This document shows positions 38,348 through 55,594 of a stretch of 64,000 nt of DNA, piece after piece. Source of the stretch: Microbulbifer sp. THAF38 (GTDB lineage: Bacteria > Pseudomonadota > Gammaproteobacteria > Pseudomonadales > Cellvibrionaceae). The notes below the pieces were generated by a model that did no database searches, was not told where the DNA came from, and was given only the letters and a program-made list of their open reading frames with translations. Each line of letters opens with the position of its first letter. The first letter of the stretch is position 1. The position numbers were made by a program, and so were the translations under genes. The DNA is taken from the NCBI RefSeq assembly GCF_009363535.1, contig NZ_CP045369.1, positions 1,066,501 to 1,130,500 of the forward strand, read 5' to 3'.

Positions 38348-38363
38348 AATTGCAGACCATCTT

Positions 38364-38411
38364 CGATGGGTGGTTTGGGGGCCGATAGCTAGAAACTACC
38401 GACTATCCGAT
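38364..38411 (+). mobile_element. Group II intron 3'-end remnant (R0)
   Basis: Matches the last half of domain V and all of domain VI of the longer copies (GATGGGTGGT..., GATAGCTAGAAACTACCGAC, end CTATCCGAT). The GNAT cassette's stop codon (TAA on the minus strand) begins at the next base, as at other intron 3' ends. Confidence 0.75.
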
Positions 38412-38834
38412 TTATATGACTGTAAGCGTCATTTGATAAAATCTATCATCTTCGCTTTCTATGACAAACCCTAGGCGACCATAAAGTCTATATGCTGGAC
38501 TACGTTTAAATACTCGTAGATCAATGAACCCTAGTTGTTTTTGCCTTGCAAGCTCGATTACCTTAGAAATAATTAAAGCGCCTAACCCTTTGTTCTGTTG
38601 AGTAGATACAACTTGAATATCTCGCAGTTGACAGCGATTGTTTTCGAATGAGAGTCGAACAACACCAAAAACTCCATCAGCGTTCACTACATCATAGTTT
38701 TCAAGATTTTCAATTGCACTGCGTACATCTGATAAAGTCCAGTCAACGCCATACATGTCATAGTACTCCTGCATGTTGGCAAGAGTAAGTTTTGCAGATT
38801 TATCCAAGTCTTGGGTTTTAATAAATTGTGTCAT
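38412..38834 (-). CDS. Cassette GNAT acetyltransferase
   Basis: A 140-residue GCN5-related N-acetyltransferase. The acetyl-CoA loop appears as QQNKGLGALI (near residue 80), followed by the Leu/Phe-rich strand FIDLRVF and a C-terminal YRLYGRLGFV typical of the family. The acceptor is unknown. It is the leftmost cassette ORF, ends exactly at an intron end, and a decayed second copy lies at 53166. Confidence 0.8.
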   Translation of the reverse strand: MTQFIKTQDLDKSAKLTLANMQEYYDMYGVDWTLSDVRSAIENLENYDVVNADGVFGVVRLSFENNRCQLRDIQVVSTQQNKGLGALIISKVIELARQKQLGFIDLRVFKRSPAYRLYGRLGFVIESEDDRFYQMTLTVI

Positions 38835-38842
38835 TGGTAAAA

Positions 38843-38891
38843 TTATAACGTCTCAAACACCGGATGACGCGACAGCTGTGTCTGGTTGATT
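38843..38891 (-). repeat. Short attC-like site between two cassettes
   Basis: On the minus strand an AATCAAC box, a 7-bp stem CAGACAC/GTGTTTG (one wobble) and then ACGTTATAA resemble a short attC. The duplicate at 53.6 kb keeps the same arrangement. The boxes are imperfect, so this is tentative. Confidence 0.35.
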
Positions 38892-39272
38892 TGACTTATT
38901 AGTAGTGAAGTAGTCAGTAATTTGAGCTTCCACTTCTTTCCTACAAATCTCAATTACTTTATCGCCCACCTCGTCATTGAATGAAGATTTAAATATGCAT
39001 TGAATAAAAACACCTTTTTCACCAGAACTAAAAGACATATTTTGGTAGCGAAGACCTAAAAGATTACTTAAATCTTGACCCTGGAGCTCTACAACTTCTT
39101 TTTGAATTTGATGATGTAAATTGCCATTCCAAACAAGATTAGCTATGACAGGGGCTGCCTTGAGATTCTCCTCATGATTCTGGCCTCCTTCAACTTGAAT
39201 ATTATAATTCTTTGAAGTGGATACTTCGCAAGCACCAATAAAAAGAATGGTTATTAATAAAATAGTCCTCAT
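38853..39272 (-). CDS. Cassette lipoprotein, unknown function
   Basis: A 139-residue exported lipoprotein: hydrophobic N-terminus with lipobox LFIGAC (Cys near residue 15), then a soluble region with scattered Cys (QCIF, EICR). No known domain recognised. It lies upstream of the GNAT cassette on the same strand, 18 bases apart. A disrupted paralogue near 53.6-54.6 kb is split by an IS200-type element. Confidence 0.7.
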   Translation of the reverse strand: MRTILLITILFIGACEVSTSKNYNIQVEGGQNHEENLKAAPVIANLVWNGNLHHQIQKEVVELQGQDLSNLLGLRYQNMSFSSGEKGVFIQCIFKSSFNDEVGDKVIEICRKEVEAQITDYFTTNKSNQPDTAVASSGV

Positions 39273-39293
39273 TTGAAATTCCTTACTTCTAAT

Positions 39294-39346
39294 GCCTAAA
39301 GCACCTGTGGCAAAACCGGAGCGAAGCGGCAGTTTTGACGTTGGGT
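39294..39346 (-). repeat. attC-like recombination site (A1)
   Basis: Outer arms GCACC/GGTGC and inner stem CAAAA/TTTTG with a three-base bulge and a GAGCGAAG loop. On the minus strand ACCCAAC fits the RYYYAAC box; on the plus strand GTTGGGT fits GTTRRRY. A short spacer then leads to the intron R1 5' end. Confidence 0.7.
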
Positions 39347-39357
39347 GCCTTTACTTG

Positions 39358-39716
39358 ATACGCCTAAGACGGGCATGGACTAATCGGGGTGAAAGTCCCC
39401 TGTAGGAAGATCACCATTTAATGGGTTCCATTAAATGCTAACTACTGGCGAATGACGACTGCAACAGCCAAGGACACCGAAGCCGGGTGATCTAACGGGT
39501 AGAGTCAAAGATGCAATTGTGTAGTGAAAGTTCATGCTTTTAACTGGGGAAGTCTGTTTAATTTACTACAGTGAAGCTGTCAGGACGGTAACAGACTCAT
39601 GTATAGGCCTAACCGGTTCGAGACTATCGTTAAGTGCATGGGTAGGGAACCGCTGATTACGTACCCCGCGATGACTGGTGTAGTAGCCGGTAACTATAAA
39701 TTGCCGGCTACACGAT
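39358..39716 (+). mobile_element. Group II intron-like element R1 (short, 359 nt)
   Basis: Starts ATACGCC after CTTG; contains the conserved GTGAAAGTCCCCTGTAGGAA and TTAATGGG/CCATTAA stem near the 5' end, and domain V/VI-like GGGAACCGC...GGTGTAG and a hairpin AGCCGGTAACTATAAATTGC ending CACGAT. It lacks about 350 nt present in the longest copies. No ORF. Confidence 0.8.
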
Positions 39717-39726
39717 TTTGAGCTAC

Positions 39727-40413
39727 TCAACAACATTGCCAGAGGAACTTACCGATCGTTCCCTCTTTATTTATGAATGCGTATGAAACACCGGAGTCTC
39801 CAAAATTGATACTAAATGGAACTTCACAGGAATCTAGCTGCATAAGAAGTGACCAATCATCCGTATTTCCGGGAAATTCGTCACCTTGTAGAAAGCTAGG
39901 TGTCCCACCAATTTTATTTCCTCCCAGCTTATTACAGTATTTTTCATAGTCATCGTCAGCTAGTTCAAAGCGTTCTGCTTCTGGAATGAACTCTGGGTCT
40001 TTTGAGGCTGAAAGATCAACAGCTAATTCGATGTCTATTGGGTAAAGACCAGTTTTCCCCTTTACCTCAACAAAGTCCTGTAAAGTTGGTCCAGTGGTGA
40101 TATTTCGTACCTTAATTTGAGGCTTACCACCCGGTTGAATAATTACTGCATTCTCGCCACCATCTGGCTCCCATGTTCCATCAACGTACTCATCATCATC
40201 TGTCATGAAGATATAGGCTACTTTTCCCTCACAACCTGGGAATAGATCATTTGTAAGTTTGATCTGACAAATAAAGCGCATGGGAGAATCCATTTCAGAG
40301 CTTATTGGCCATTGAGCTTCCTCAAGCCAATTGGGCTGACCGCCAAATTTTGTAACAACATCAGAAATCGGTAATTCAGTTACTTTGAATTTTATTGTAT
40401 TCCGAGTAATCAT
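39727..40413 (-). CDS. Cassette DUF1963 (YwqG-like) protein
   Basis: A 228-residue protein of the DUF1963/YwqG type, with FGGQPNWL near the start, an inner PMRFICQIKL strand and a C-terminal repeat NKLGGNKIGGTPSFLQGDEFP followed by LLMQLDS. Function is unknown; the family is frequent in bacterial accessory regions. I start at the ATG at 40413; the longer frame runs through the attC-like site into intron R2. Confidence 0.75.
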   Translation of the reverse strand: MITRNTIKFKVTELPISDVVTKFGGQPNWLEEAQWPISSEMDSPMRFICQIKLTNDLFPGCEGKVAYIFMTDDDEYVDGTWEPDGGENAVIIQPGGKPQIKVRNITTGPTLQDFVEVKGKTGLYPIDIELAVDLSASKDPEFIPEAERFELADDDYEKYCNKLGGNKIGGTPSFLQGDEFPGNTDDWSLLMQLDSCEVPFSINFGDSGVSYAFINKEGTIGKFLWQCC

Positions 40414-40445
40414 ACTTATCCTTGTGTACTCTAAACCCTTGCTAA

Positions 40446-40510
40446 TAGGCTGCTGAAACTCAGTGTAGGCTGTCCCGCGGAAGCGGAACGGAGTGTACTT
40501 GAGTAACTTG
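40446..40510 (-). repeat. attC-like site before intron R2 (A2)
   Basis: On the minus strand a stem ACTCA/TGAGT encloses a second stem (GTTCCGC/GCGGGAC). With the bases after the intron the box reads GCATAAC, matching RYYYAAC. The distal core is degenerate. Confidence 0.5.
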
Positions 40511-40979
40511 GTACGCCTAGTATGGACGTGAACTAATGGGGTGAAAGCCCCCTGTAGGAAGATCACCGTTTAATGGGCGTCATTAAATGCTAACTACCAG
40601 CGAATGGCAACTGCAACACCGTGAGGTCTTGTGAGGAGGAAGCCGCTAGCAAGACTACGAGCTGACGAACAGAAACATCCTATAAGGCTTAGCCTGGAGG
40701 GGCACCGAAACGGGGAGGTCTAAGGGTAGAGTCAATGGTGTAGCTGTGCAGTGAAAGGTCACATTCTTATCTGGGGAGATCGGTTTAGCTTGCTGCTGTG
40801 AAGCTGTCAACGTGGCCGCTGACTCAGGAGTAGTGCACTGACATGATACTCTACTCAAATGAAGAGCTACTCGACACTTTCGTTAGGTAGAAATTCATTA
40901 CGGATAGGGAACCGCTCATTGCGGACCCACACAATGGGCGGTGTGGGGGCCGGTAGCTAGAAACTACCGGCTACCCGAT
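40511..40979 (+). mobile_element. Group II intron-like element R2 (469 nt)
   Basis: 5' junction CTTG/GTACGCC and 3' end CTACCCGAT followed by TTA. The domain V candidate is at about 40907-40947 (GGGAACCGC...GGTGTGGG) and the domain VI hairpin CCGGTAGCTAGAAACTACCGG follows. It lacks a segment of about 210 nt found in the longer copies, with the same breakpoints as R6. Confidence 0.88.
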
Positions 40980-41035
40980 TTATGCGCCTGTCTCTGCCTA
41001 ATCACAGCGACATCTATGTAGTTATCAAATAGTGC

Positions 41036-41281
41036 TTATTTACGATTAGCCCACGGAGATTTATTTTCAAAAGTTGAGATATACAGATTCTCGACTTTAT
41101 CTCGAGCCCACTGGGTTTTGCGTAAAAATTTGAGCGAAGACTTAATTGATGGGTCACTCTTAAAACAATTGATATTAATCCTATCAGCCAAACCATCCCA
41201 GCCATAATGCTCCTGCAAACGTGCAACAACCTTCTCAAGAGCAATACCATGTAGCGGATTATTTGGTTGTTCTTTGCTCAT
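41036..41281 (-). CDS. Cassette VF530-family protein, copy 1
   Basis: An 81-residue protein of the VF530 DNA-binding family: NNPLHGI at the N-terminus, [14 protein letters not shown], and the conserved [25 protein letters not shown] structure of a Vibrio member shows a helical fold, and the family is common in integron cassettes. Copy 2 at 50274 differs at only a few residues. Confidence 0.85.
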
Positions 41282-41305
41282 TCTTCAATCAATACTCTAT
41301 GTTTA

Positions 41306-42014
41306 ATGCCGCGAGCATGGGCGTGAACTGATGGGGTGAAAGCTCCCTGCAGGAAGATCACCATTTAATGGGTGCCATTAAATGCTAACTACTAGCGAAT
41401 GGCAACTGTAACACCGTGAGGTCTTGTGGGGATGAAGCGGCTAGTTAAGCTATGGGCTGACGGACCGAAACATCCTATAAGGCTTCGCCTGGAGGCGAGA
41501 TGGGCAAGGACACGGAAGCCGGGTGATCTAATGGGTAGAGTCAATGATGCAGCTGTGTAGTGAAGGTTCACACTCTTACCTGGGGAGATCTGTTTAACTT
41601 GCTGTTGTGAAGTTGTCAGTGTGGCCGCTGACTCATAAGTAGGCTCAACCCGCTAGTCATCATCGCGGGGGTAGAGAAAAAGTGGTGGAACACAGCAGCG
41701 CCTCGGTCAGTAATGACTAAGGTGATTAAGCAGAAGTCAGCCGACGGCATAGTAGCCTAATGCAAAGATTAATACCTTGGACATGGTGAAGGCCTGAACC
41801 TAAACTCCACGAGTTTAAAGACAGGGCTAGCCTACGGATAGGTTTCCAGTCGGATAAAGTTGAGGTAGCGCACTGCCATGACACTCAGATCAAATGAAGA
41901 GCTGCACGATACTGTTGTTGGGTAGAGATTCATTACGGATAGGGAACCGCCCATTGCGGAGTCCCATGATGGGTGGTGTGGGGGCCGGCAGCTAGAAACT
42001 ACCGGCTACCCGAT
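41306..42014 (+). mobile_element. Group II intron-like element R3 (709 nt)
   Basis: A long copy. The 5' end is degenerate (ATGCCGCG before AGCATGGG), and the 3' end is CTACCCGAT/TTA. It includes the internal CAGCCGACGGCATAG block, which I read as a leftover of the intron protein gene, and domain V/VI at about 41941-42014. Confidence 0.88.
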
Positions 42015-42023
42015 TTATATGAA

Positions 42024-42950
42024 TTACTCACGTAATTTGCAATAAGTTTGTACGCCACCATATGTGACCTTCCACTGTTTCTGATTACTTTCATTATCAG
42101 AAGACACTAATGAATACTCTATTGTTGCCTGCCCACATACTATCTCTGGGTCTACTGATCTTCTACAAAGTCCATAATTTCCATTTTTGTCAGAGACCCA
42201 AAAATCCTTGTACCTCGTAATTCGAGGTTTGGGTATACTCTTGTACATCGAGCCATCTTCTAGAAGAGAAATTAGCTCTATAGAATTCATTGGCGGCCTG
42301 TTAATAGCTTCCCAGCGACGAGCATTACCAAGCTCGCCACATCCGTCGGGCAGACTATTTTGTTTCCATGTAATAGCATCTAAAGCAATAGGATCTGGCT
42401 TCACATCTAGTTTTCGATATTCTTTGAATTTACCTAGCTCTTTGAAATCATTTACAGCGTATAAAACTAATCCGGTTCGAGCGCAGATATTGGTTGTATA
42501 TACGATTTCGTCATCGGTCAATTCATCAATCGACTTGTGATTCTTAATTGTTTTTCTATCTCCAATAATACTAAGGGAGGCGGCATTTGGAGCTCCATCT
42601 ATTTGCTTGTTATTCCAGTTTTCTGCTTTTCTTCCGAAACCGTAAACTATTAGGTTGGTCCCAGGCTTTAAAAATTCACGGAAGAAGCCTCCACAGCTAG
42701 AACCCTCTACATTAGTATGCATGGTAAACTTACTACTAATATTACCTTTCCATACCCTAGCAACATCGAATTCCAATAGAATTCTAGGTTCCCATTCCTC
42801 TTTAGAGTCCACAAGCGTGAAGTTATCCACTATGCCTGCAAAAACCACATCTGCGGATTCCTTAGCTTCATTCACGCTTATGGGGGCACATGTACACGCC
42901 CAAGACTGATAGGAAACTAATAATCCAAATATTGGTAACAATCTAAACAT
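42024..42950 (-). CDS. Cassette secreted Cys-rich protein, TIMP/NTR-like N-terminus
   Basis: A 308-residue exported protein. The signal peptide ends before CTCAP, and the pattern CTCAPISVNEAKESADVVFAG, VARVWKG and a later SSCGGFF matches the netrin/TIMP-like OB fold seen in some bacterial exported proteins, where the N-terminal Cys pair binds metal in the animal inhibitors. The C-terminal part is unassigned. Its stop lies nine bases past the intron end. Any protease-inhibitor role is inference only. Confidence 0.6.
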   Translation of the reverse strand: MFRLLPIFGLLVSYQSWACTCAPISVNEAKESADVVFAGIVDNFTLVDSKEEWEPRILLEFDVARVWKGNISSKFTMHTNVEGSSCGGFFREFLKPGTNLIVYGFGRKAENWNNKQIDGAPNAASLSIIGDRKTIKNHKSIDELTDDEIVYTTNICARTGLVLYAVNDFKELGKFKEYRKLDVKPDPIALDAITWKQNSLPDGCGELGNARRWEAINRPPMNSIELISLLEDGSMYKSIPKPRITRYKDFWVSDKNGNYGLCRRSVDPEIVCGQATIEYSLVSSDNESNQKQWKVTYGGVQTYCKLRE

Positions 42951-42977
42951 ATATATGTTTTCGTTTTACGAGACTAA

Positions 42978-43057
42978 GCTCAAACTCACAAAACGCCTTT
43001 AGCAAAGGCAAATTGCGGAGCCGAAGGCGTAGTAATTTGTCCGCTTGCCTAAATTTA
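42978..43057 (-). repeat. attC-like site before intron R4 (A4)
   Basis: Inner hairpin CAAATT/AATTTG at 43009-43014 and 43034-43039 with unpaired bases on one side, and an outer stem using AGGC and GCCT segments. The right half is repeated before intron R6 (near 49706). Confidence 0.55.
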
Positions 43058-43310
<253 letters not shown>

Positions 43311-43684
43311 TTCAAAGCTGAATGAAGGCAATAATTACAGTCGCAAATACAAGGATTTATAATTTCGAGTGGCTCAGCAAACTGAAACTCAACTCGCCAT
43401 CGGTTACATTTACACGATCCTTTATAGAACATAAAAATTTGTACCAATTACAATTAAGCACAGCATTCTCATTTTCGACGAGGAAGGCTTCCCGCCTCCA
43501 ACATTGTGGACTATATGTGATAAGTTTTATTGAGTCCGCTTTACCTATTGTTGTTATAGGTACGCTCGTTTGTAGTTTGCATCAAGAAAGAACAAAATAT
43601 TTATATTTTGACTTACAGTTGCCTGCAAATATGAGATAATACTAGACTTACTTCTCAGCCCATTTGTAGTTTGGATTTATCTTA
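43311..43684. other. Non-cassette DNA before the DUF945 gene
   Basis: A short plus-strand frame (43322-43639) shows no recognisable motif and is probably not a gene. The stretch leads to the DUF945 gene, likely including its promoter. Confidence 0.4.
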
Positions 43685-45094
43685 ATGAAGAAATTATTAA
43701 GTGTGTTGCTTTCAGCAGCAGTGCTTACTGGTGTTGTTGCACCGAAAATTACCGGTATTCAACTTGAGTCATCCATTGATGAAATAATCACTGCCGCGAA
43801 TGAAAATTCGGCATACACGGTTGAAGTAAAAAGCATGGATTCATCCTGGTTTTCAACCCAGACCACCTTTTTGGTAAGCATGGATCTCAATGCTTTCTCG
43901 GATGTATCAGATACCCCTGAACTTGAACCTTTTTCTGTAGAAGTAGATTTCAGTGCTTCCCACGGCCCCTTTCGCTTCGGTGAACATGCCGGTTTCGGAT
44001 GGCTTGGCTGGACGCTAGAAGTTGCCGGTGATCAATTACGTGAACATTTGGTGTGGGCTGAGCAAACTCCTTTTTACCAGCTTCATGGCGATATGAATGC
44101 TCTAGGTGGTTATTACTATAACGACAGCATTACGCCATTTACTACTGATATTGAAGATCATAAAGCTCAATTAACTTTCAGCGGTTTTCAGGGTAAAGGG
44201 CAATATCAGGATGGGCAACTAACTTACCAAGGGGGTGCCGATAGCCTTACCGTCACTTCTGAGTTAAGGGATGTCAAGGTTGAGAGGTTGACTATGGATA
44301 TGACCATGCCTTCCTCCCTTAAGGCAATCTTTGAAAGTGCTTTTTATGATTCTGATACAACAATTAACTTTGGTGCCATCAGGTTAAATGATAGAGAACA
44401 AAACGAAAATATTGACATTGCTGACCTATATGTGAAGGCCAGTACTGAATTCAACCAAGAAAAACAACAGGGAAATATGCAGGTTGCCTACGGCTCTAAA
44501 AAGATCGACATAGCTGAATTCCATGGTGAAGATCTGGCCCTTGAGATTGAGGTCGCCAATATCAGCCAAGAATTTTTGAAGTCTTATCAGGATTTTGCCA
44601 ACTCACTCAATACGCTACCTGCTGAAGACGCAGGAGCTAAGGCCATGGAGTTTATGAGCGCTAACCTGTTATCTTTAGTGGCTGGCGAGCCTCAAGTGAA
44701 TATTACCAGCTTACGAGGTACTTTCCCGCAAGGCAGCTTTAACAGTAACCTTCATACTAGCTTAGTTGGCATTAGCGCGTTACCGGAGCAATCACTAGAT
44801 CCGGCTTTCTGGCTGTCACATGCCTTAGTTGACGGCAAGCTAAGTGGAGATAAAGCCTTGATTGAATTTATGGCCGTACAAGTGATGAAAGTTCAATTGA
44901 AAAATAACCCGCAAACCCAAGGCATGAGTGAAGAGCAGCTGGAGCAAGTAGCTGCTCAACAAGTACCGACCATATTAGAGTCTCTTGAGCAACAAGGTTT
45001 GTTGGTATCAACCAATGACGGCTACAGCTCCAATATCAGCCTGAAGGACAGCGAGTTTAAGGTTAATGAAAAACCTATGCCGCTGCCCCTTTAG
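43685..45094 (+). CDS. DUF945 (YdgA-like) exported protein
   Basis: A 469-residue protein with an N-terminal signal (KKLLSVLLSAAVLTGVVAP) followed by long beta-rich and acidic stretches that fit the YdgA/DUF945 family of bacterial periplasmic or inner-membrane-attached proteins of unknown function. It is the only clear gene of the array on the plus strand and carries its own terminator, so it may be a non-cassette insertion. It is flanked on the left by a half intron and on the right by an intron 3' remnant. Confidence 0.75.
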   Translation: MKKLLSVLLSAAVLTGVVAPKITGIQLESSIDEIITAANENSAYTVEVKSMDSSWFSTQTTFLVSMDLNAFSDVSDTPELEPFSVEVDFSASHGPFRFGEHAGFGWLGWTLEVAGDQLREHLVWAEQTPFYQLHGDMNALGGYYYNDSITPFTTDIEDHKAQLTFSGFQGKGQYQDGQLTYQGGADSLTVTSELRDVKVERLTMDMTMPSSLKAIFESAFYDSDTTINFGAIRLNDREQNENIDIADLYVKASTEFNQEKQQGNMQVAYGSKKIDIAEFHGEDLALEIEVANISQEFLKSYQDFANSLNTLPAEDAGAKAMEFMSANLLSLVAGEPQVNITSLRGTFPQGSFNSNLHTSLVGISALPEQSLDPAFWLSHALVDGKLSGDKALIEFMAVQVMKVQLKNNPQTQGMSEEQLEQVAAQQVPTILESLEQQGLLVSTNDGYSSNISLKDSEFKVNEKPMPLPL

Positions 45095-45116
45095 CGGATA
45101 TTAGCCGTTTGTGATT

Positions 45117-45151
45117 GAAGTGGCTTACCTTAAGCCACTTCATACTTTTTT
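45117..45151 (+). terminator. Terminator after DUF945 gene
   Basis: A perfect stem GAAGTGGCTT/AAGCCACTTC, loop ACCTT, followed by ATACTTTTTT. Confidence 0.9.
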
Positions 45152-45310
45152 GCGTCAGACTGACTGTTTCCTCCTCTTCTAAGGCTGACGATTTATCGGT
45201 TTATTGTGTTAACGATGTTTACCTAAGCTATAAACAAAGCGGGACATGGTTTAGTTTTTGTTATTGGTGAAAACGTAAGAATACAAGCGCTAACGGCTGT
45301 TAACCCATGG

Positions 45311-45759
45311 TTATGACTTTTTAAGCCCTTTTAGTATGGCTACCGAATGCTCCCTGGTCTTACGATAAAAGTCCTTTCTTCCTGAGACTGAAGCAAACCC
45401 TGTCGTTGCAAACATTGCGGTCATAACCTGACCATATTCGGAAAAATACAATTCGCCGGCTTCACTTGAAATATTTATGCGAAGGTCTTTGTCCAGCTCC
45501 CAAGCCCCTTTATCGAAAAGAGCGGTATGCATACCGGGCTCCAATTCTAACTCAAAGACCCCTCCATTCTTGAGGCAGCTAATTTCTTTTTGGTCGATAA
45601 CCAAATCAGGGGAACTTCCAGATCCGTAAAATGATGCTTGGCGGAAAATATAGGCTATGGCCTTTTCATTTTTCGGCTCGTCAACCTGATCAAACGCTGG
45701 CCCAGTTGCGGTGCATCCTATCAGCATTACTGAAAAATAAGTAGAATGGTTTGCTTCAT
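45311..45759 (-). pseudogene. DUF2846-like lipoprotein, broken by a 1-nt deletion
   Basis: From 45727 down, the 138-residue frame begins MLIGCTATGP, a lipobox, followed by AIAYIFRQ and LELEPGMHTA, resembling DUF2846 lipoproteins. The signal peptide lies upstream in a different frame: ATG at 45759 gives MKQTILLIF, then a stop. Adding one T to the five-T run (complement of 45733-45737) restores MKQTILLIFSVMLIGC. It is thus either inactivated, or read by slippage or re-initiation. Confidence 0.65.
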
Positions 45760-45790
45760 TGATACTCCTGAGTCATAACAGCCGCTACTA

Positions 45791-45816
45791 TGAGTAGAAA
45801 CTACCGGCTACCTGAT
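45791..45816 (+). mobile_element. Group II intron domain VI remnant (R4b)
   Basis: Ends GTAGAAACTACCGGCTACCTGAT, matching the last bases of the longer copies. This suggests the whole 43.3-45.8 kb segment replaced or interrupted a former intron between cassettes. Confidence 0.75.
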
Positions 45817-45840
45817 TCAGTTGAAAACCCTATTAGAGCC

Positions 45841-46080
45841 TCATTGCTTTGAGGCCCAAATTGCCAACCTATGCATGATAGCCTTCTGTGATATTTTGTC
45901 TTCTTGAAGCGGTTGAATAACTTTATCGTGCACTAAAAGACGATAAATATATTCGAGCTTCTCGTGAGCTGAATCGGTAGCTTCGAATTCGACAACTCCT
46001 CGCTTGGTGCCATACGCAGTACCAAGTGCTATAGCCTTTTTCACTAACTCTTTTTCGTTTTTGAGTTTCTTCATTATCAT
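45841..46080 (-). CDS. Cassette small protein, DUF5062-like
   Basis: A 79-residue charged protein, KKLKNEKELVKKAIALG..., with IYRLLVHDKVIQPL and a C-terminal HRLAIWASKQ, recalling the small DUF5062 family found in marine gammaproteobacteria. No function is known. ATG at 46074 or 46080. It is bordered by an attC site on its right. Confidence 0.6.
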   Translation of the reverse strand: MIMKKLKNEKELVKKAIALGTAYGTKRGVVEFEATDSAHEKLEYIYRLLVHDKVIQPLQEDKISQKAIMHRLAIWASKQ

Positions 46081-46107
46081 GTCTCAAAGAGGTCGTCGAT
46101 ATTACGC

Positions 46108-46208: not shown

Positions 46209-46884
46209 GTATGCCCAGCATGGGCGTGAACTAATGAGGTGAAAGGCCCCAGTGGGAGGATCACCATTTAATTGGTTCCATTAAATGCTAACTATTGGCG
46301 AATGGCAACTGCAACACCGTGAGGTCTTGTGGGGAGGAAGCCGTTAGCAAATACGAGCTGACGAACAGAAACATCCTATAAGGCTTAGCCTGGAGGCGAG
46401 GTGGCCAAGGACACCGAAGCCATGTCATCTAACGGGTAGAGTCAATGATGCACTTGTGTAGTGAAAGTTCACACTCTTACCTGGGGAGGTCTGTTCAGCT
46501 TGTTGCTGTGAAGCTGTCAGCGTGGCCGTTGATTCATAAATGGCCCAGCCCGCTAGCCATCATCGCGGGGATAGATAAAAGTGGTGGGACATAACAGCGC
46601 CTCGGTCAGAAATGACCAAGGTGACTAAACAGAAGTCAGCCGACGGCATAGTAGCCTAATGCCAAGATGAATACCTTGGACATGGTGAAGGCCTGAACCT
46701 AAAGCCATGAGTTAAAAGGCAAAGCTAGCCTATCGATATGTTTCCAGGCCGATAAAGTTGAGGTAGCGCACTGCCATAACACTACCCTTGGGTAGAGGTT
46801 CATTACGGATAGGAAGGCGCCCATTGTGGACCCGCACGATGGGTGGTGTGGGGGTCGGTAGCTAGAAACTACTGGCTACCAAAT
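46209..46884 (+). mobile_element. Group II intron-like element R5 (676 nt)
   Basis: Junctions CTTG/GTATGCC and CTACCAAAT/TTAG. It has the full internal region including CAGCCGACGGCATAG and domain V GCGCCCATTGTGG...GGTGGTGTGG. The final bases differ slightly (AAAT for CGAT). Confidence 0.88.
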
Positions 46885-47706: not shown

Positions 47707-47817
47707 CTCACGTAACCGCTCCCTAGATTCCCATAACAACCGACACACTTGGCGATAGCGAAGGAGGCCAGCTGGCTGTAGGCTAGTAAGCTTCCACACA
47801 AACAAGCCAGGAACCTC

Positions 47818-48765
47818 ATGGGAACCCGTACCAGCCAGCTGACCTTGAAAGAACGATACCAGATTGAGGTCCTTAATGGGCAGAACTATTCAGCCCGAGC
47901 CATTGGACTACGCCTCAATAGATCCAATAAGACCATCTCTCGTGAGCTTGGTCGTTACAGCCCTTACTGTGCCGAGAGTGCCCACCGTCAGGCACTGCAA
48001 CGACGGCACGGAGCTATTAAACATACCAAGCTCGACTTTGCCATGCAGGTACAAATCGACCACCAGCTAAAAAATGCAAGTCCTGAACAAATCGCTGGGC
48101 GAATGCGGCTTGAACGGTGTACGAAAACGGTTAGTTGTTCAACAATTTACCGCTGGGTCAGTCGACTTAACTGGAGGTCACGTCTGCCAAGGAAAGCCAA
48201 ACCTTATCAGAAACGGGCAGGTTCCGAGGCAGGCGTAAAGCTTATTCCAGAGCGCATAGATATTGATCAAAGACCTGCGATTGTCGATGAAAACACTGAG
48301 ATAGGTCACTGGGAAGGCGATACAGTTTATGGTCAAGATGGCTATCTGGTGACACTGGTTGAACGAGTTTCCAAATTATTGCTCACTCGCAGAGTCCCAA
48401 ATAAGAGCAAGAAAACAGTGAGCCGGGCGATCAAGCAGATGTTGAAGCCATATCAGGCCATCTGCAAAACCATCACCTTCGATAATGGTGGAGAATTCGC
48501 AGGTCATCAATCGATTGCGCAGAAGCTAGGATGCAGAATATATTTTGCGAAACCTTACCACTCCTGGGAGCGTGGGCTGAACGAAAACACTAATGGTCTC
48601 TTGAGGCGCTTCTTCCCGAAAGGAGTGGAAATAGGCAAGATACCAAAAAGCCGTATTGATGATGCAGTGTTTCGAATCAATACTCGCCCCAGGAAGGTGT
48701 TAAATTACTTGAGCCCACTGGAATTTTTGGTGGGTAAACGTGTGTCACTTATGTTGGCAATCTAG
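47818..48765 (+). CDS. IS30-family transposase, apparently intact
   Basis: A 315-residue DDE transposase. Visible parts: N-terminal helix-turn-helix (TLKERYQIEVL, AIGLRLNRSNKTISRELGR), the first Asp in IGHWEGDTVYG, the second Asp in TFDNGGEF, and the Glu region ERGLNENTNGLLRRF. Length is typical. It has cut the homocysteine methyltransferase-like cassette. Terminal repeats could not be set with certainty. Confidence 0.9.
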   Translation: MGTRTSQLTLKERYQIEVLNGQNYSARAIGLRLNRSNKTISRELGRYSPYCAESAHRQALQRRHGAIKHTKLDFAMQVQIDHQLKNASPEQIAGRMRLERCTKTVSCSTIYRWVSRLNWRSRLPRKAKPYQKRAGSEAGVKLIPERIDIDQRPAIVDENTEIGHWEGDTVYGQDGYLVTLVERVSKLLLTRRVPNKSKKTVSRAIKQMLKPYQAICKTITFDNGGEFAGHQSIAQKLGCRIYFAKPYHSWERGLNENTNGLLRRFFPKGVEIGKIPKSRIDDAVFRINTRPRKVLNYLSPLEFLVGKRVSLMLAI

Positions 48766-48847
48766 GCTCAACTACCGCCGCCTCTGACAATATAAAATCT
48801 TGACTAAGTAAATCGTGCATAAAAGTCCCGGTTAAATACAATTAATA

Positions 48848-48956
48848 CCGTGCTCAGCCTCAGCTTGCTGCGGGTGCATTGTCTAAAATAATAGGCGCGC
48901 AGCGACCGTGCAAAAGGTGCCCGCAGTAAGCTGAGGACTGCAGCGCATTGTTAGTT
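48848..48956 (-). repeat. attC-like site without intron (A-IS)
   Basis: A long imperfect stem (CCTCAGCTTGCTGCGGG with CCCGCAGTAAGCTGAGG) flanked on the minus strand by AACTAAC, then AATGCGCTGC. It keeps the attC outline but carries no intron. The far core is degraded near the IS30 end. Confidence 0.6.
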
Positions 48957-49185
48957 TTTTTCGCCTACTTAACCAAGCAGCACCCACTATAGAAAGTAAA
49001 AGCCACCCTGACATTACGATATTGAAATTACGCTGCTGATCTGCTTCAGAATTGTAGAGCCTGAAATCTGCCAGGCTCAAGCCCCATCCAGCTAAATACA
49101 CTAAGAAGAAATAAGAAGCCTCCCTCTGTAGAGTTGTCGCGTTTGGGCAACTTGTTATGTATTGTATTAGCTGCATTGTAGGCAC
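48883..49185 (-). CDS. Cassette small membrane protein
   Basis: A frame of about 100 residues with two probable membrane helices (FFLVYLAGWGLSLADF and IVMSGWLLLSIVGAAWL) and a basic end that runs into the attC-like site. No family recognised. Confidence 0.5.
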   Translation of the reverse strand: MPTMQLIQYITSCPNATTLQREASYFFLVYLAGWGLSLADFRLYNSEADQQRNFNIVMSGWLLLSIVGAAWLSRRKKLTMRCSPQLTAGTFCTVAARLLF

Positions 49186-49205
49186 GATTTTAATTTTTAT
49201 TTAAA

Positions 49206-49688
49206 TCAATGTTTACCCCTAATCTTGGTAACTATCTCATTAATTAATTCAGCAGGTAATAACGATTTAGACAAGTACTGCTGCCCTCCAGATTTAGCCA
49301 CCAAAATAAGCCCTAAATCAGTTTCAATAATATGCTCGATATCTGCCCACGACAGAGCTGTTATCGTATAAGGATTCTGTGTCTGGATTCCATCCTTATC
49401 TATGGTTAATTTCACTTCACTACCGGCACTTCTCCCAAGCATCTGCCGTGCTAACCACCAAGCTCGTCGAAATCGAATATGAATCAGTTCCAGTACGCCT
49501 AATGCAATTAAGGTGTAACTTGCGATCTTAGGTTGCTCAGTAAATAACAGCAATCCCGCACCAGTAGATAATAATAATGTAGGAAGAAGATAACTGGGTT
49601 TGACATTTTTCCCATAGGGTAGAGACTGATCATAGCATTCGGCAAGGTAATCTCTAGATAAGGTAAATTGAGTATTAAAAGGCTGCAT
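49206..49688 (-). CDS. Cassette YcxB-like membrane protein
   Basis: A 160-residue protein with two membrane helices (around PSYLLPTLLLSTGAGLLLF and IASYTLIALGVLELIHI) and a C-terminal soluble domain with SWADIEHIIETDLGLILVAK, characteristic of the YcxB-like family of unknown function. It has a cassette-like setting beside intron R6. Confidence 0.7.
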   Translation of the reverse strand: MQPFNTQFTLSRDYLAECYDQSLPYGKNVKPSYLLPTLLLSTGAGLLLFTEQPKIASYTLIALGVLELIHIRFRRAWWLARQMLGRSAGSEVKLTIDKDGIQTQNPYTITALSWADIEHIIETDLGLILVAKSGGQQYLSKSLLPAELINEIVTKIRGKH

Positions 49689-49736
49689 AAAAACAACTTA
49701 TTGTGTCTGGTAAATTTGTTCACTTGCCTAAATTTG

Positions 49737-50217
49737 GCACGCCCAGCATGGGTGTGGACTAATGGGGTAAAAGTCCTCTGTAGGAAGATCACCGATTAAT
49801 GGGTTCCATTAAATGCTAACTATCAGCGAATGGCAACTGCAACACCGTGAGGTCTTGTGGGGAGGAAGCGGCTAGTAAAGCTATGAGCTGGCGAACAGAA
49901 ACATCCTATAAGGCTTAACCTGGAGGCGAGGGGCCAAGGGCACCGAACCCGGGTGATCTAATAGGTAGAGTCAATGGTGCAGCTGTGCAGTGAAAGGTCA
50001 CGTTCTTACTCTGGGTAGATCAGTTTAACTTGCTGCTGTGAGGCTGCCAGCGTGGCCGCTGGCTCAGAAGTAGCGCACTGCCATGATACTCTACTCAGAT
50101 GAAGAGCTGCTCGACACTATCGTTGGGTAGGGATTCAACGGATAGGGAACCGGCCATTGCGGATTGGCACGATGGGTGGTGTGGGGGCCGGTAGCTAGAA
50201 ACTACCGGCTACCCGAT
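49737..50217 (+). mobile_element. Group II intron-like element R6 (481 nt)
   Basis: 5' GCACGCCC after TTTG and 3' CTACCCGAT/TTATGCGCC. It shares with R2 the internal deletion that joins CTCAGAAGTAG to CGCACTG. A half attC (AAATTTG, GCCTAAATTTG) precedes it. Confidence 0.88.
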
Positions 50218-50273
50218 TTATGCGCCTGTCCCAGCTTAATCACAGCGACATCTATGTGGCTACCAAATAGTGA

Positions 50274-50519
50274 TTATTTACGATTAGCCCACGGAGATTT
50301 ATTTTCAAAAGTTGAGATATACAGATTCTCGACTTTATCTCGCGCCCACTGGGTTTTGCGTAAAAACTTGAGCGAAGACTTAATTGTTGGATCGCTCTTA
50401 AAGCAATTGATATTAATCCTATCTGCCAAACCATCCCAGCCATAATGCTCCTGCAAACGTGTAACAACTTTCTCAAGAGTAATACCATGTAGCGGATTAT
50501 TTGGTTGTTCTTTACTCAT
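50274..50519 (-). CDS. Cassette VF530-family protein, copy 2
   Basis: An 81-residue near-duplicate of the ORF at 41036 with the same ends and about three changes ([18 protein letters not shown]). Flanking intron sequence on both sides is also duplicated, so copying took place as a larger unit. Confidence 0.85.
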
Positions 50520-50543
50520 TCTTCAATCAATACTCTATGTTTA

Positions 50544-51251
50544 ATGCCGCGAGCATGGGCGTGAACTAATAGGGATGAAAGTTCCCTGTAGGAAGATCAC
50601 CGTTTAATGGGTTCCATTAAATGCTAACTACTAGCGAATGGCAACTGTAAGATCGCGAGGTCTTGTGGGGAGGAAGCCGCTAGCAAAATATGAGCTGACG
50701 AACAGAGCATCCTATAAGGCTTAACCTGGAGGTGAGGTGGCCAGGGGCACTGAAGCTGGGTGATCTAACGGGTAGAGTCAATGATGCAGTTAGGTAGCGA
50801 AAGTTCACGTTCTTATCTGGGGAGATCAGTTTAGCTTGTGCTGTGAAGCTGTCAGCGTGACCGCTGACTCATTAGTAGGCTTAATCCGCTAGCCATCATC
50901 GCGGGGATAGATGAAAGAGGTGAGACACAGCAGGGCCTAGGTCAGTGATGAGCAAGGTGATCAAACAGAGGTTAGCCGACGGCATAGTAGCCTAATGCCA
51001 AGATGAATAGCTTGGACAGGGTGAAGGCCTGAACCCAAACTCCATAAGTTAAAAGACAGGGCTAGCCTACCGATATGTTATCCAGTCGGATAAAGTTGTG
51101 GTAGCTCACTGCCATGACACTCAACTCAAAAGAAGAGCTCCTCGATACTATCGTTAGGTAGACATTTAATTCGGGTAGGGAATCGCCCACTGCGGACCCG
51201 TACGATAGGTGGTGAGGAGGGCTGGTAACTAGATACTGCCCGCTGCCTGAT
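50544..51251 (+). mobile_element. Group II intron-like element R7 (708 nt)
   Basis: A long copy with a start as in R3 (GCGAGCATGGGCG) and 3' end CTGCCTGAT/TTA. The next cassette's stop TAA begins at the base after the intron. It contains the GTTAGCCGACGGCATAG block. Confidence 0.85.
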
Positions 51252-51497
51252 TTAATTGCTTGGTGTGATATCGGATTTCTTACCGCCAGCAATATATGTT
51301 TCTATGTAATTTTCAATTGTACTGGAGGGGAAAGAATAAACCATCACATTAAGAAGACCATAAATCTCAGTATCTTTTATAGATGTAGATTCTACATTCA
51401 GAGTGGTCTGAATATTATTGTAGGTGTCCATGTTTTGAATAATATATTTTTCACCCCATTGATACATTTTCTTCCTCTCCGCGCCTTGAAAATCCAA
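51252..51497 (-). CDS. Cassette hypothetical protein
   Basis: An 81-residue frame with no recognised domain (KKMYQWGEKYIIQN, NYIETYIAGG). It overlaps the next frame by 47 bases in another phase, so the two may be one gene split by a frameshift. Confidence 0.45.
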   Translation of the reverse strand: MDFQGAERKKMYQWGEKYIIQNMDTYNNIQTTLNVESTSIKDTEIYGLLNVMVYSFPSSTIENYIETYIAGGKKSDITPSN

Positions 51498-51660
51498 GGA
51501 GAAGAGTAATCATTTTTGCTTGGTCTGCCGAGCACCCTGACTGGATAAGGACTACTGAGATTTCTATACCTCGCTTTAGGCCTCTATGCTCACCAGTAAG
51601 ATAAGCAGTTACAACTAGACAAAAAACTACCAAACTTCTAATAAAGTTTGTATATGGCAT
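51451..51660 (-). CDS. Cassette hypothetical membrane protein
   Basis: A 69-residue frame with one N-terminal hydrophobic helix (SLVVFCLVVTAYLTG). It may be the 5' part of the gene ending at 51252 if a frameshift is assumed. Confidence 0.4.
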   Translation of the reverse strand: MPYTNFIRSLVVFCLVVTAYLTGEHRGLKRGIEISVVLIQSGCSADQAKMITLLLGFSRRGEEENVSMG

Positions 51661-51732
51661 AATTTCTCTTTTGGTAATTAATACTGTGCTTAGATGAGGA
51701 CAAATATGGGTGATTTATGCGCAATAATGGGA

Positions 51733-51793
51733 GCACAACGATCACACGTAGCGTGCACAAAATTGGCTTTCGGCCTGAAGTGCATTGTTAGCA
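51733..51793 (-). repeat. attC-like site without intron
   Basis: On the minus strand GCTAAC, then AATGCACTTCAGGCCGAAAGCC, ending with GTTGTGC. It has the outline of an attC, carries no intron, and lies between two cassette ORFs. Confidence 0.45.
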
Positions 51794-51799
51794 GCTTCT

Positions 51800-52393
51800 T
51801 CATGAACCACCCCAAAGCAATAGCCCAACAATCGGTAAAATCGATGCGAATAGAGCAAGAAAGGGTGCAGATTTCTTCTTTGATGTCTCGATAAGATAGA
51901 GCGCAATCTCCGATGAAAATAGACCGGTTATTAACATTGAGTTGAAGCAAATCATTAATAGTGCAAGTGCGGTACCATGTACAGACCAGTTGAAAGCAGA
52001 ATGTATAATAGAAACAATTGATAAGCCCAACGTAAACGCAACAATTGAACTTGTTACCTGCTTCAGTCTTAGCTTTAGATGTGCCGCTGAATCATGAAAT
52101 ATATTACATCGAAATTCCAAACGAGATATACAAACCGCAGCAGAGCCTAAAATCAAAACACCAAACAGCATTAAGCCATAGGCCTGAAAAGAAACGAAGT
52201 CTGAAAATAGCGCATTAGCCCAAGATTCTTCAGATGCGATTCCTGCTCTTCTAGCGGGGGCATAAATTATCATAAAAATTCCAACAAGCGCCCCAGATAG
52301 CGAGAAAAATGGTAGATCCTTTTTAAGCTCACTTAAGAACTCGCTATATGCTTCTTTCAAAATCTCATTCATTACTCTTTTGACTCCTTTCAT
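51800..52393 (-). CDS. Cassette four-helix membrane protein
   Basis: A 197-residue protein with about four membrane helices (LSGALVGIFMIIYAP; GLMLFGVLILGSAAVCI; SSIVAFTLGLSIVSII; ALLMICFNSMLITGLF) and a short helix at the end. No family recognised. The start could be at 52393 or the ATG at 52372. It lies between an attC-like site and intron R8. Confidence 0.55.
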   Translation of the reverse strand: MKGVKRVMNEILKEAYSEFLSELKKDLPFFSLSGALVGIFMIIYAPARRAGIASEESWANALFSDFVSFQAYGLMLFGVLILGSAAVCISRLEFRCNIFHDSAAHLKLRLKQVTSSIVAFTLGLSIVSIIHSAFNWSVHGTALALLMICFNSMLITGLFSSEIALYLIETSKKKSAPFLALFASILPIVGLLLWGGS

Positions 52394-52398
52394 CAGCT

Positions 52399-52469
52399 AG
52401 CATCCACAACATCGGCGGAGCGTCAGCGACGTCCAGCGGAACGAGGTGGAGCAATTGTGCTTGTACTTG
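52399..52469 (-). repeat. attC-like site before intron R8
   Basis: An outer CACAA/TTGTG pairing around imperfect inner arms (AGCGTCAGCGACGTCC). The core GTTGTGG lies at the far end on the minus strand. Moderate match only. Confidence 0.45.
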
Positions 52470-53166
52470 GTACGCCCAGTATGGGCGTGTACTAGTGGGG
52501 TGAATGCCCCCTGTAGGAAGATCACCATTTAATGAATTTCATTAAATGCTAACTACAAGCGAATGGCAAGTGTAATACCGTGAGGTATTGTGGGGAGGAA
52601 GCTGCTAGTAAAGCTATGAGCCGATGGGCAGAAACATCATACAAGGCTTAGCCTGGAGGCGAGGTGGCCAAGGGCACCGAAGCGGGTTGATCTAACAGGT
52701 AGAGTCAATGATGCAGTTGTGTAGTGAAAGTTCACCTTCTTATCTGGGGAGGTCTATTTAGCTTGCTGCTGTGAAGCTGTCAGCATGGTCGCTGACTCAT
52801 AAGTAGGCCCAGCCCGCTAGCCACCATCGCGGAGATAGAGAAAAAGTGGTGGGACACAGCTGCGCCTCGGTCAGTATTGATCAAGGTTATTAAGCAGTAG
52901 TCAGCCGACGGCATAGTAGCCAAATGTCAAGACTAATACCTTGGAAAGGGTGAAAACCTGAATCTAACTCCATGATTTAAAAGATAGGGCAAGTCTACCA
53001 ATAGGTTTTCAGTTGGATAAAGTTGAGGTAGCGCTCTGCGACGGCACTTAACTTAAATGAAGAGCTGCTCGACACTATTGTTGGGTAGAGATTTATTGCG
53101 GGTAGGGAACCGCCCAATGCGGACCCACTCGATGGGTGGTGTAGTCGTCGGTAGCTAGAAACTACC
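52470..53166 (+). mobile_element. Group II intron-like element R8 (697 nt), 3' end clipped
   Basis: Junction TACTTG/GTACGCCC. It contains CAGCCGACGGCATAG and domain V. The last bases of domain VI are lost: ACTACC joins directly to TATATGACTG, which in the left copy follows the full intron end. Confidence 0.85.
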
Positions 53167-53580
53167 TATATGACTGTAAGCATCATTTGATAAAATTTAT
53201 GATCCTCGCTTTCTATGGCAAACTCCAGGCGACCATAAAGTCTATATGCTGCACTACGTTTAAATACTCGTAGATCAATGAAATCTAGTGTTTTTGCCTG
53301 CAAGCTCGATTACCTTAGAGATAATTAAAGTGCCTAACCGTTTGTTCTGTTGAGTAGATATAACTTGAATATCTCGCAGTTGACAGCGATTGTTTTCAAA
53401 TGAGAGTCGAATAGCTCCAAAAACTTCATCAGCGCTCACTACATCATAGTTCTCAAAATTTTCAATTGCACTGCGCACATCTGATAAAATCCATTCAACG
53501 CCATACATGCCATAGTGCTCCTGTATGTTGGTAAGAGTAAGTCTTGCAGATTTATTCAAGTCTTGGATTTTAATAAATTG
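53166..53580 (-). pseudogene. Decayed duplicate of the GNAT cassette
   Basis: Aligns with the GNAT gene at 38412 along its length. Two one-base losses (CTAGTTG to CTAGTG and CCTTGC to CCTGC on the plus strand) break the frame after VIELA. Confidence 0.8.
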
Positions 53581-53672
53581 TGTGATTGGTCAAATCATAA
53601 TGTCTAAACAACGACGAGGCGACAGCTGTGTCTGAATGGTTTGACTTATTAGAATTGAAGTAGTCAGTAATT

Positions 53673-54275
53673 AACATACAGGTAAACCATCGACTCTGGC
53701 GGTGAGACTTGACAAGGCTCAGCTGTTCCGGCGTGCAGAGTAAAAATATGGCCTCCATGAACCGGCAAGTTCTAGAATGAGGCCATATGCGAGATTGGCA
53801 GTGCCAAGCTCACGTAAAACATTATTGCAGGTACCACGTGGTATTTGTGCCCAAGTATCGAAAGAAAGTGTTATTTGGGACATTGAGACGGGAGATTGGA
53901 GCAATATTCCGAGATATATGTTGTCAAAAGGGTGTTGAGTTGATCGAGGGGTACGCAATGAGGGATCACATTCATACGCTATTAATGATTCCTACGAAGT
54001 TTAGTGTTTCTAATACGGTTGGGTTTCTGAAAGGGAAATCTGCGATCCAGATATTTCAGAAGTACAAGAATGTACAGAGAAATTTCACAGGAAGACACTT
54101 TTGGGCTCGGGGTTACTGCGAGAGTACAGTGGGGCTTGATGATCAGATGATTAGAGAGTACATCAAGAATCAAGAGGTCGAAGAACGCCGGCAAGATCTG
54201 ATGTAACTTGCGGGGTTATAACTAGCCCCTCTGGGGGCTTTCATCATACCACTCGCTATGCGGGTGGTTGCTGAT
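53673..54275 (+). mobile_element. IS200/IS605-family insertion element (about 603 bp)
   Basis: Exact limits follow from comparing the interrupted lipoprotein copy with the intact one: GTCAGTAATT / TGAGCTTCC are contiguous at 38.9 kb. No target duplication is seen, as expected for single-strand transposition. Hairpins occur at both ends (GGCCTC/GAGGCC near 53749-53784; AGCCCC/GGGGCT near 54225). Confidence 0.85.
53787..54206 (+). CDS. tnpA: IS200/IS605 TnpA transposase
   Basis: A 139-residue Y1 transposase. The HUH motif is HIH in DHIHTLLM, and the catalytic Tyr is in EYIKNQE near the C-terminus. The KYRKKVLF and AIFRDI blocks are typical. It appears full length. Confidence 0.92.
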   Translation: MRDWQCQAHVKHYCRYHVVFVPKYRKKVLFGTLRREIGAIFRDICCQKGVELIEGYAMRDHIHTLLMIPTKFSVSNTVGFLKGKSAIQIFQKYKNVQRNFTGRHFWARGYCESTVGLDDQMIREYIKNQEVEERRQDLM

Positions 54276-54644
54276 TGAGCTTCCACTTCTTTCCTACAAA
54301 TCTCAATTACTTTATCGCCCATCTTGTCAATGAATGAAGATTTAAATATGCATTGAATAAAACACCTCTTTCACCAGAACTTAAAGACATATTTTGTAGC
54401 GAAGACCTAATAGATTACTTAAATCTTGATCTTGGAGCTCTACAACTTCTTTTTGAATTTGATGATTTAATTTGTTATTCCAGACAAGATTAGCTATGAC
54501 AGGGTAGGCTTTAAGATTCTCCTCATGATTCTACCATCCCTCAGCTTGAATAGTATAATTCTTTGAAGTGGATACTTCGCAAGTACTAAGAAAAAGAAAG
54601 GTTATTAATAAAATAGTCCTCATTTGAAACTCCTTACTTCTAAT

Positions 54645-54697
54645 GCCTAAAGCACCTGTGTTAAAACCAGGGCAAAACGGTGGTTTTGATGTTGGAT
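54645..54697 (-). repeat. attC-like site (A9), duplicate of A1
   Basis: Near copy of the site at 39294, with GCCTAAAGCACC and GTTGGAT. Confidence 0.65.
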
Positions 54698-54708
54698 GCC
54701 TTTATTTG

Positions 54709-54801
54709 ATACGTCAAGCATTTCGAGACTATCGTTGGGTAATACGGATTGGGAACCGCCCATTGCGGCCCCGCATAATGGGTGATTCAGAACCGGTAGC
54801 T
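54709..54801 (+). mobile_element. Internally deleted group II intron remnant (R9)
   Basis: Starts ATACGTCAAGCA and jumps to TTCGAGACTATCG and domain V-like GGGAACCGCCCATTGCGG. It ends in domain VI, where an IS5-type element has inserted at GTAGCTAG. Confidence 0.7.
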
Positions 54802-55594
54802 AGAGGCTGTTTCATAACTTGAAATCGGTTTTTTTCACGCAATTACATAGCAAAAAATCCAGCAATACTGAGCCGATTGAAGTCAGAATTAACCAATGAT
54901 CAATTGACAATCGAGACTGTTTTGAAGGCATCCTGTGGGTTATACGTTCTGGAGCGCGAAGGAAAGATCTTCCTTCACACTATCCATCACCGAGTACATA
55001 CTGGAGAAGGCTTTAGTTTTAGGAAGAGCAAGGAGCTTGGTTACAGGTATGGAGTAGGTTCCTGGAGCTGTTGGATCAACAGTCTTTGCTTAACTGGGAG
55101 GAGGTCTTTTCTGATGGCAACTTTGAACCACCAAAAAAGGGGGCTTCGAAATCGGGAAAACTAAGCGGGGCAAGGGTTCAAAGTGGATGGTGGTGGACGA
55201 TGGCGAAGATACTCCACTAGGAGGCACCATTACTTCGGCCTCACCAGCAGAACTAAAGTTATTACATCCATTATTTGATGTTACGTATAAAAATACAAAG
55301 ATTCATCGCTTAGTTTATGATAAAACGGCGAACTCTGATCTACTTCGAGATAGTTTGTAGGGTCGTGGAATCGACCTTATCTGTCCAAATAGGAGAAATA
55401 GCAAAAAAACTCAAGGCAGGATGGTAAAAAGCTCAGAAGGTATACTCGCCGTTGGAAAGTTGAGCGGTCTTTTGCGTGGCTGGTAAATTACCGCCATTTT
55501 GTTGTTAGAGAGGAACGATATTCGTTCAATTATCGCGCTTTTTCTATATTGCATGCATGTTAATTACATTAAAGAAGTTATGAAATAGCTTCTA
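54802..55594 (+). mobile_element. IS5-family element, degenerate
   Basis: Terminal inverted repeats AGAGGCTGTTTCATAACTT (54802) and AAGTTATGAAATAGCTTCT (55575) face each other. Inside, frame-broken IS5-type transposase pieces are seen: VVDDGEDTPLGGTI, then [16 protein letters not shown] and YSFNYRAF. Confidence 0.75.
54877..55564 (+). pseudogene. IS5-family transposase remnants
   Basis: Several stops and frame changes. The C-terminal [16 protein letters not shown] block is diagnostic of IS5-group DDE transposases. Confidence 0.75.

Follow-up and report, generated by a model that had tools for sequence, protein, structure and literature searches.

Group IIC-attC introns, as described in PMC7923331, encode a reverse transcriptase (RT) without an endonuclease domain, carry the CGC triad characteristic of class IIC in domain V, and are inserted opposite to integron cassettes after the hairpin of the attC bottom strand, with TTGT/T as the target. 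The cassette-formation model of Leon and Roy, as retold in PMC3053210, proposes that a gene becomes linked to an attC through homologous recombination of one intron with another. Introns without an open reading frame (ORF) have been described in Thermosynechococcus elongatus, where 17 ORF-less TeI3 introns derive from one ORF deletion and occur beside RT-bearing relatives (PMC2882425), and a review regards ORF-less group II introns as rare in bacteria and expects that few have escaped notice, save any with an unusual domain V (PMC4424553). Here we describe a 64,000-nt stretch of the Microbulbifer sp. THAF38 genome (contig NZ_CP045369.1, positions 1,066,501 to 1,130,500; hereafter the window), in which a cassette array is occupied by ORF-less copies of what is probably a IIC-attC intron. 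Microbulbifer is a marine genus, harmless as far as is known, and integron biology has yet to explain how a gene first gains an attC.

We consider it probable that these elements are non-autonomous group IIC-attC introns that also act as homology handles through which genes and attCs are exchanged, in line with the Leon-Roy model. This reading draws on the fold of the ribozyme, its insertion site, a shared deletion, mosaic introns and discordance between genes and attCs; from these we infer splicing, mobility in trans and the recombination pathway. The array occupies 38.3-54.9 kb of the window, a region read on both strands, and consists of minus-strand genes of cassette type (GNAT, DUF1963, VF530, DUF2846, S-methyltransferase, YcxB-like and unknowns) separated by plus-strand repeats. 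A preliminary description of the sequence had reported eight long copies and three fragments, all on the plus strand among minus-strand cassettes; these repeats are confirmed, and the 11 copies or fragments of one RNA element were recovered as R1-R8 and as R0f, R4b and R9f (Table 1), up to eight of them in register in a repeat comparison of the region. Direct repeats in an array are mostly 80-90% identical, and at most 98%. About nine of the 14 minus-strand cassettes, read by eye, have a whole or partial intron, which fits the earlier statement that most attC sites carry one. Matches to RF02001, which we take to be of IIC type, occur in seven of the 11 window copies (E 8.9e-20 to 6.5e-9) and matches to RF01998 in four, all on the plus strand and above the Rfam gathering score; through these two families domains D1-D4 of group II class IIC were recognized.

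The window copies retain just a short remnant of the RT gene start, and none has the RT of its own that marks an autonomous mobile group II intron; they are classed as non-autonomous because they lack an RT ORF. The description 'no ORF at all' therefore holds inside the window and fails genome-wide, since six near-identical RT-bearing copies lie elsewhere in the same genome (G000, 4.79 Mb in three contigs; other G numbers denote the genomes compared), with 0 or 1 difference from one of their number, F1, over 1900 nt. The full RT-bearing intron measures 1917 nt, GTACGCCC...CTACCCGAT, and both RF02001 and RF01998 match F1. Its intact 423-aa RT passes TIGR04416, has the GsI-IIC RT as best solved relative (E 3.7e-118, residues 9-423 of 423), and is 93% identical to one in Microbulbifer okhotskensis, on a contig that matches one of G004, a genome listed under the same genus as G000, without a difference over 3243 nt. 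A class C RT without an endonuclease domain is found in the RT-bearing copies only and, together with the Rfam matches, bears out the group IIC-attC identity first proposed. There is no integrase beside the array, the nearest match over the cut-off in G000 being more than 0.8 Mb away.

Several other loci of this genome touch on the same subjects. Both G000 integron integrases over the cut-off look broken (G000:C1:2000279-2001217 and 3326568-3327176; L046, L047), one having an internal TAG and the other spanning profile positions 113-315 only. A second group II RT gene (G000:C1:1769197-1770420; L010 / L045) is 44% identical to the family RT, and about 2 kb from it lies an intact attC resembling an attC that carries an intron in G042. 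A second small array (G000:C1:1279196-1283182; L040) has the RT-bearing F1 beside an ORF-less copy that shows yet another type of deletion, one also present in G010 and G044.

The distribution of the family was assessed in 96 genomes, comprising the window's own, 47 of the same genus and 48 of other genera, on the best five candidates per genome. Contiguous ORF-less copies were found in nine of the 48 genus members, G000 included, and in none of the 48 genomes of other genera, while 12 further genomes gave partial matches only. When eight carriers were searched again, at least 13 to 50 matches per genome were obtained, split matches counted apart (for G044, the best 40 of 65); with the number of scored candidates capped in each genome, some copies and empty alleles escaped notice. 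A profile was then applied to 30 loci from eight carriers, almost every one selected for its copies, RT or integrase genes, and leaving out the arrays of G004, which carries copies, and isolated copies outside the chosen stretches. These loci yielded 160 whole or fragmentary copies; 96 retain both ends, and 13 of the 96 exceed 1200 nt in length. Every locus has a single orientation.

The same ORF-deletion junction occurs in 95 of the 103 ORF-less copies covering the place (within six edits of 23 nt; 69 within three), against four of 103 shuffled copies, all at six edits, which suggests that a single ORF-less derivative spread in trans. Twenty-one copies, drawn from all eight genomes, have a second deletion (model 336/558) in common, and rarer deletions are found in two or three copies each. 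Because deletion junctions are common to many copies, the element appears to have shrunk stepwise and its shrunken forms to have multiplied. RTs close to that of the window genome (at least 93%, full length, no stop) are present in G000, G044 and G004, with a broken piece (84%) in G003. G044, whose intact RT is 96% identical to that of the window genome, has ORF-less copies that are up to 97.6% identical across 705 nt and whose flanks are unrelated at either end.

In 101 copies the last 81 nt at the 3' end can be arranged as a domain V (DV) of 9+4 pairs and a domain VI (DVI) of 11 pairs, with 90.8% of cells paired against 34-50% for slid structures. Changes on both sides are seen in 16 of the 24 DV/DVI pairs, compared with 9.5 in shuffles (0/500). 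DV contains a CGC triad with a middle G-U pair and shows covariation, and DVI has in folds a bulged A 7 nt from the 3' end. The structure was named from sequence and then counted, in an alignment of 101 of the 121 listed 3' ends that left out five of the six near-identical RT-bearing copies in G000 together with 15 further entries, chiefly fragments and sequences whose ends were irregular. Among seven sequences folded singly, F1, R2, R3 and R6 show DV/DVI, R5 does so partly, and R7 and R1 do not.

TTG precedes 80 of the 96 two-ended copies and TTA comes after 83. Of 119 upstream flanks, 59 have the motif YAACGY of the far attC arm at a distance of 35-135 nt (10.1 expected), and 28 show L-box complementarity of at least five (3.9 expected). 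A local-alignment arm test for attC proved too weak (9/119 at p<0.02), and the motif and L-box counts were used instead. Empty sites were sought for 13 sites (nine ORF-less, four RT-bearing) among the best six to eight candidates per genome. For F2, an RT-bearing copy, the intron-free attC and gene occur at six places in five genomes (74-91%); two of these alleles align ungapped across the site (310/358 and 307/356 identities) with no intron in the stretches compared, and they place the insertion at TTG|TTA of the attC. Together with the motif count and the single orientation per locus, this indicates insertion into the attC bottom strand, opposite to the cassette genes, and upholds the antisense position at attC-like sites previously suggested. 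ORF-less copies gave related empty attCs only, with similarity extending beyond the junction by 18 nt in one (89/102 identities) and by 14 nt in the other (81/99).

These data bear on two other accounts of the array. Its copies could be inactive remnants whose number grew solely as DNA blocks were duplicated, through cassette duplication or unequal crossing-over, and not by movement at the RNA level; the window does contain duplicated blocks (GNAT plus the next cassette, and the VF530 module), its copies have diverged, and none of the nine ORF-less sites tried gave an empty allele. We hold this to be very improbable, given that the 96 two-ended copies have 92 distinct flank combinations and sharp TTG|TTA ends, that G044 copies more than 95% identical have unrelated flanks on both sides, and that paired positions covary. 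Retention of the elements as functional RNAs or as cassette promoters seems slightly less probable still: outward promoters are reported for IIC-attC introns in a review (PMC8876359), but sites of the sigma-70-like type, the only type counted, are not enriched over 38300-54900 (24 found, 34.2 expected).

The association between introns, genes and attCs varies across copies. The 83 ORF-less copies with both ends form 69 pairs that have a flank in common: the gene side alone in 35, the attC side alone in 27 and both sides in seven. Gene-sharing pairs with introns have no common attC in 28 of 35 cases, eight of nine families including a discordant pair, compared with 9 of 34 cases and three of ten families where introns are absent (Fisher p 0.020); the intron-free comparison dropped ORFs with only a downstream intron fragment or with an intron within 260 nt but not adjoining. 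Greater similarity in gene-sharing pairs is seen at the 3' end of the intron but not at its 5' end (Wilcoxon p 0.0023, 11 of 14 families; families hand-listed, pairs sharing both flanks left out). Eight copies could be tested because they have a partner at each end; four of them are mosaics (p 0.002 or below), and 10 of 23 triples reach p<0.01, the p values being uncorrected for the 23 triples; in G042_332465, for instance, the 3' part follows G009_122874 and the 5' part G042_344578. The pairwise homoplasy index (PHI) is significant in G009 (0/500) and G044 (1/500).

The TrmH-like cassette appears to be the clearest case of reassortment across introns. In G042 and G009 the gene comes after an ORF-less intron, the gene flanks being 99% alike over 400 nt; the two introns agree at 194/199 positions over the last 200 nt and at 113/141 over the next blocks, and their 5' flanks are unrelated. 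The gene occurs without an intron at six places in six genomes (G000, G002, G003, G010, G036, G044), where five of the six attCs are 62-89% identical to each other and the one in G044 resembles them at only 48-60%, in some comparisons close to what shuffled sequence gives. The attCs of G000 and G036 are not independent because these genomes share a longer block at the locus (2.5 kb at 93%). Both intron-bearing flanks, compared with the four intron-free attCs tried, score at or near the level of shuffled sequence. The VF530-family gene occurs seven times in five genomes of the fetched arrays. Six of these copies are bounded by introns on both sides, with 27-38 nt from gene start to right intron (27 nt for both R3 and R7), and have three left flanks and six different right flanks; an intron-free copy in G044 has attC-like flanks, judged by eye.

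Pure retrotransposition might produce much of this pattern if introns had entered cassettes already paired with different attCs, the discordance being older than the introns. Such an account suits the precision of attC insertion, the partial discordance of the three intron-free families, the absence of significant mosaics in the other four testable copies, and gene-sharing pairs whose introns differ throughout (e.g. G009_127204 / G029_189623). We nevertheless think it unlikely, because the 3' ends of introns, unlike their 5' ends, go with the gene, mosaics such as G042_332465 exist, and the TrmH-like cassette has related attCs in five of its six intron-free places.

The course of events we favour for introns acting as homology handles would be as follows. 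An RT-bearing IIC-attC intron would have lost most of its ORF once; a class C RT acting in trans would then have inserted copies of this ORF-less ribozyme, and later of shorter forms, into the attC bottom strand (TTG|TTARRY), leaving them between a cassette gene and its attC hairpin. Because insertion splits the R'' box of the attC and no integrase is nearby, excision by integrase should be impaired; homologous recombination between introns in direct repeat could then bring a gene on one side of an intron together with a different attC on the opposite side. Opinion can be evenly divided over the broader proposal that ORF-less ribozymes have replaced attC and integrase as the recombination sites of Microbulbifer arrays, with intron-flanked genes, some of them attC-less as in the VF530 module, moving between arrays. 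If true, the gene-attC joining step of Leon and Roy would have been caught in nature.

A number of results weigh against this interpretation, besides the discordant intron-free families and the testable copies without significant mosaics. That the 3' ends are domains V and VI, as originally suggested, is supported by covariation in their pairing, yet other checks of the fold went the other way: the lowest-energy fold has both domains in only four of seven sequences, RNAalifold, run unaided on the DV/DVI alignment, returned an unrelated 6-pair structure without DV/DVI, and Rfam lists no match to its domain V family RF00029 for the window copies or F1. Fifty of the 119 upstream flanks satisfy neither of the looser attC tests, and the first arm test reached p<0.05 in only 18 of 119. 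attC types recur with unrelated genes, so attC-side sharing alone is weak evidence. PHI is not significant when pooled over all 48 long copies (334/500) or in G042 alone (85/500). No RT of the family was found at E 1e-80 in G009, G010, G029, G036 or G042, of which G010 and G042 are single contigs, and the ORF-less copies of these five carriers may be immobile. Finally, the empty-site alleles that the preliminary description proposed as a check exist, with attC and gene intact, for one RT-bearing copy (F2), that is for one of the four RT-bearing sites, and for none of the nine ORF-less sites, where the longest reach past the junction was 23 nt. Our confidence was lowered to its present level because no ORF-less site gave an attC-plus-gene empty allele. 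Overall, the interpretation first put forward is partly supported; it did not include the RT source in the genome, the one ORF deletion, how widely the family has spread in the genus, or the gene-attC reassortment.

The features of the array are collected in Table 1, together with a transposase-like gene, an IS200-like transposase and a DUF945 gene that interrupt the run of cassettes.

Table 1. Intron copies, VF530-family genes and other features of the cassette array (positions in the 64,000-nt window; HMM, hidden Markov model).
Feature	Position	Strand	Basis or remark
R0f: 3' tail (DV part and DVI) ahead of GNAT cassette	38349..38411	+	nhmmer model positions 647-708
R1: short ORF-less intron, model 2-108/198-360/599-708 deletion type	39358..39716	+	profile; type also twice in G003
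R2: ORF-less intron, extra D4-region deletion (model 336/558 type)	40511..40979	+	RF02001, profile
VF530-family gene between R2 and R3; start 27 nt from R3	41036..41281	-	PF09905
R3: long ORF-less intron, no attC hairpin ahead	41308..42014	+	RF02001, RF01998, profile
R4f (R4): 5' half of copy only, ends early ahead of DUF945 gene	43062..43319	+	RF02001; HMM stretch 43085-43312
5' hairpin of R4f: short tandem expansion of GGGCAT units	43062-43095		
DUF945 gene, strand opposite to cassettes, after cut-off intron R4f	43685-45094	+	
R4b: final 24 nt of a copy, adjoins DUF5062 cassette	45793..45816	+	by eye, then aligned; missed by HMM
R5: long ORF-less intron	46209..46884	+	RF02001, RF01998, profile
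Transposase-like gene inside array, presumably IS30 type, adjoins S-methyltransferase cassette	47818-48765	+	rve, HTH_38
R6: ORF-less intron, 336/558 type, ahead of second VF530 gene	49737..50217	+	RF02001, profile
Second VF530-family gene, between R6 and R7	50274..50519	-	protein 96% identical to first VF530
R7: long ORF-less intron, no attC hairpin ahead	50546..51251	+	RF02001, RF01998, profile
R8: long ORF-less intron without its last nucleotides	52470..53166	+	RF02001, RF01998; HMM to position 697
IS200-like Y1 transposase	53787-54206	+	splits second copies of two cassettes; first copies adjacent at 38412-39272
R9f: DV fragment, right edge	54710..54808	+	HMM 587-694

IIC-attC introns, ORF-less introns arising from one deletion and the recombination model are all already in print. 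In the titles and abstract openings of the open-licence literature searched, there was no report of an ORF-less IIC-attC family, of serial miniaturization or of comparative gene-attC exchange at introns, and nothing pairing 'Microbulbifer' with 'group II intron'. As far as the accounts available to us describe them, S.ma.I2 and its relatives resemble the present family in their IIC ribozyme, RT without an endonuclease domain and antisense insertion at attC; they may differ in target, since the Microbulbifer empty allele gives TTG|TTA, one base off the published TTGT/T, with an intron 5' end of GTACG, and they do differ in that Microbulbifer arrays are filled by tens of ORF-less copies. The TeI3 introns likewise combine a single ORF deletion with ORF-less copies beside RT-bearing relatives. 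Their class is CL/IIB1 and they come from one genome, whereas the Microbulbifer family is IIC, resides in integron arrays of nine genomes and has undergone serial further deletions; to our knowledge, TeI3 insertion sites are not attC. Against the rarity of ORF-less introns stated in PMC4424553, Microbulbifer is a genus with tens per genome of a family lacking a listed Rfam domain V match. As in a CALIN (cluster of attC without integrase), there are cassettes with attC-like sites and no integrase nearby; unlike in a CALIN, the attCs are largely interrupted by introns. The Leon-Roy model, as retold, shares with the Microbulbifer arrays the pairing of gene and attC by intron-intron recombination; it starts at a terminator intron and ends with RNA splicing and reverse transcription, whereas in Microbulbifer the gene partner also looks like an attC insertion and no intron-free chimera, the product of that last step, was seen, five of the six intron-free TrmH-like copies having related attCs. 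Because these arrays show one gene with several attCs across an intron, as well as break points within introns, they allow the intron-recombination model to be tested directly.

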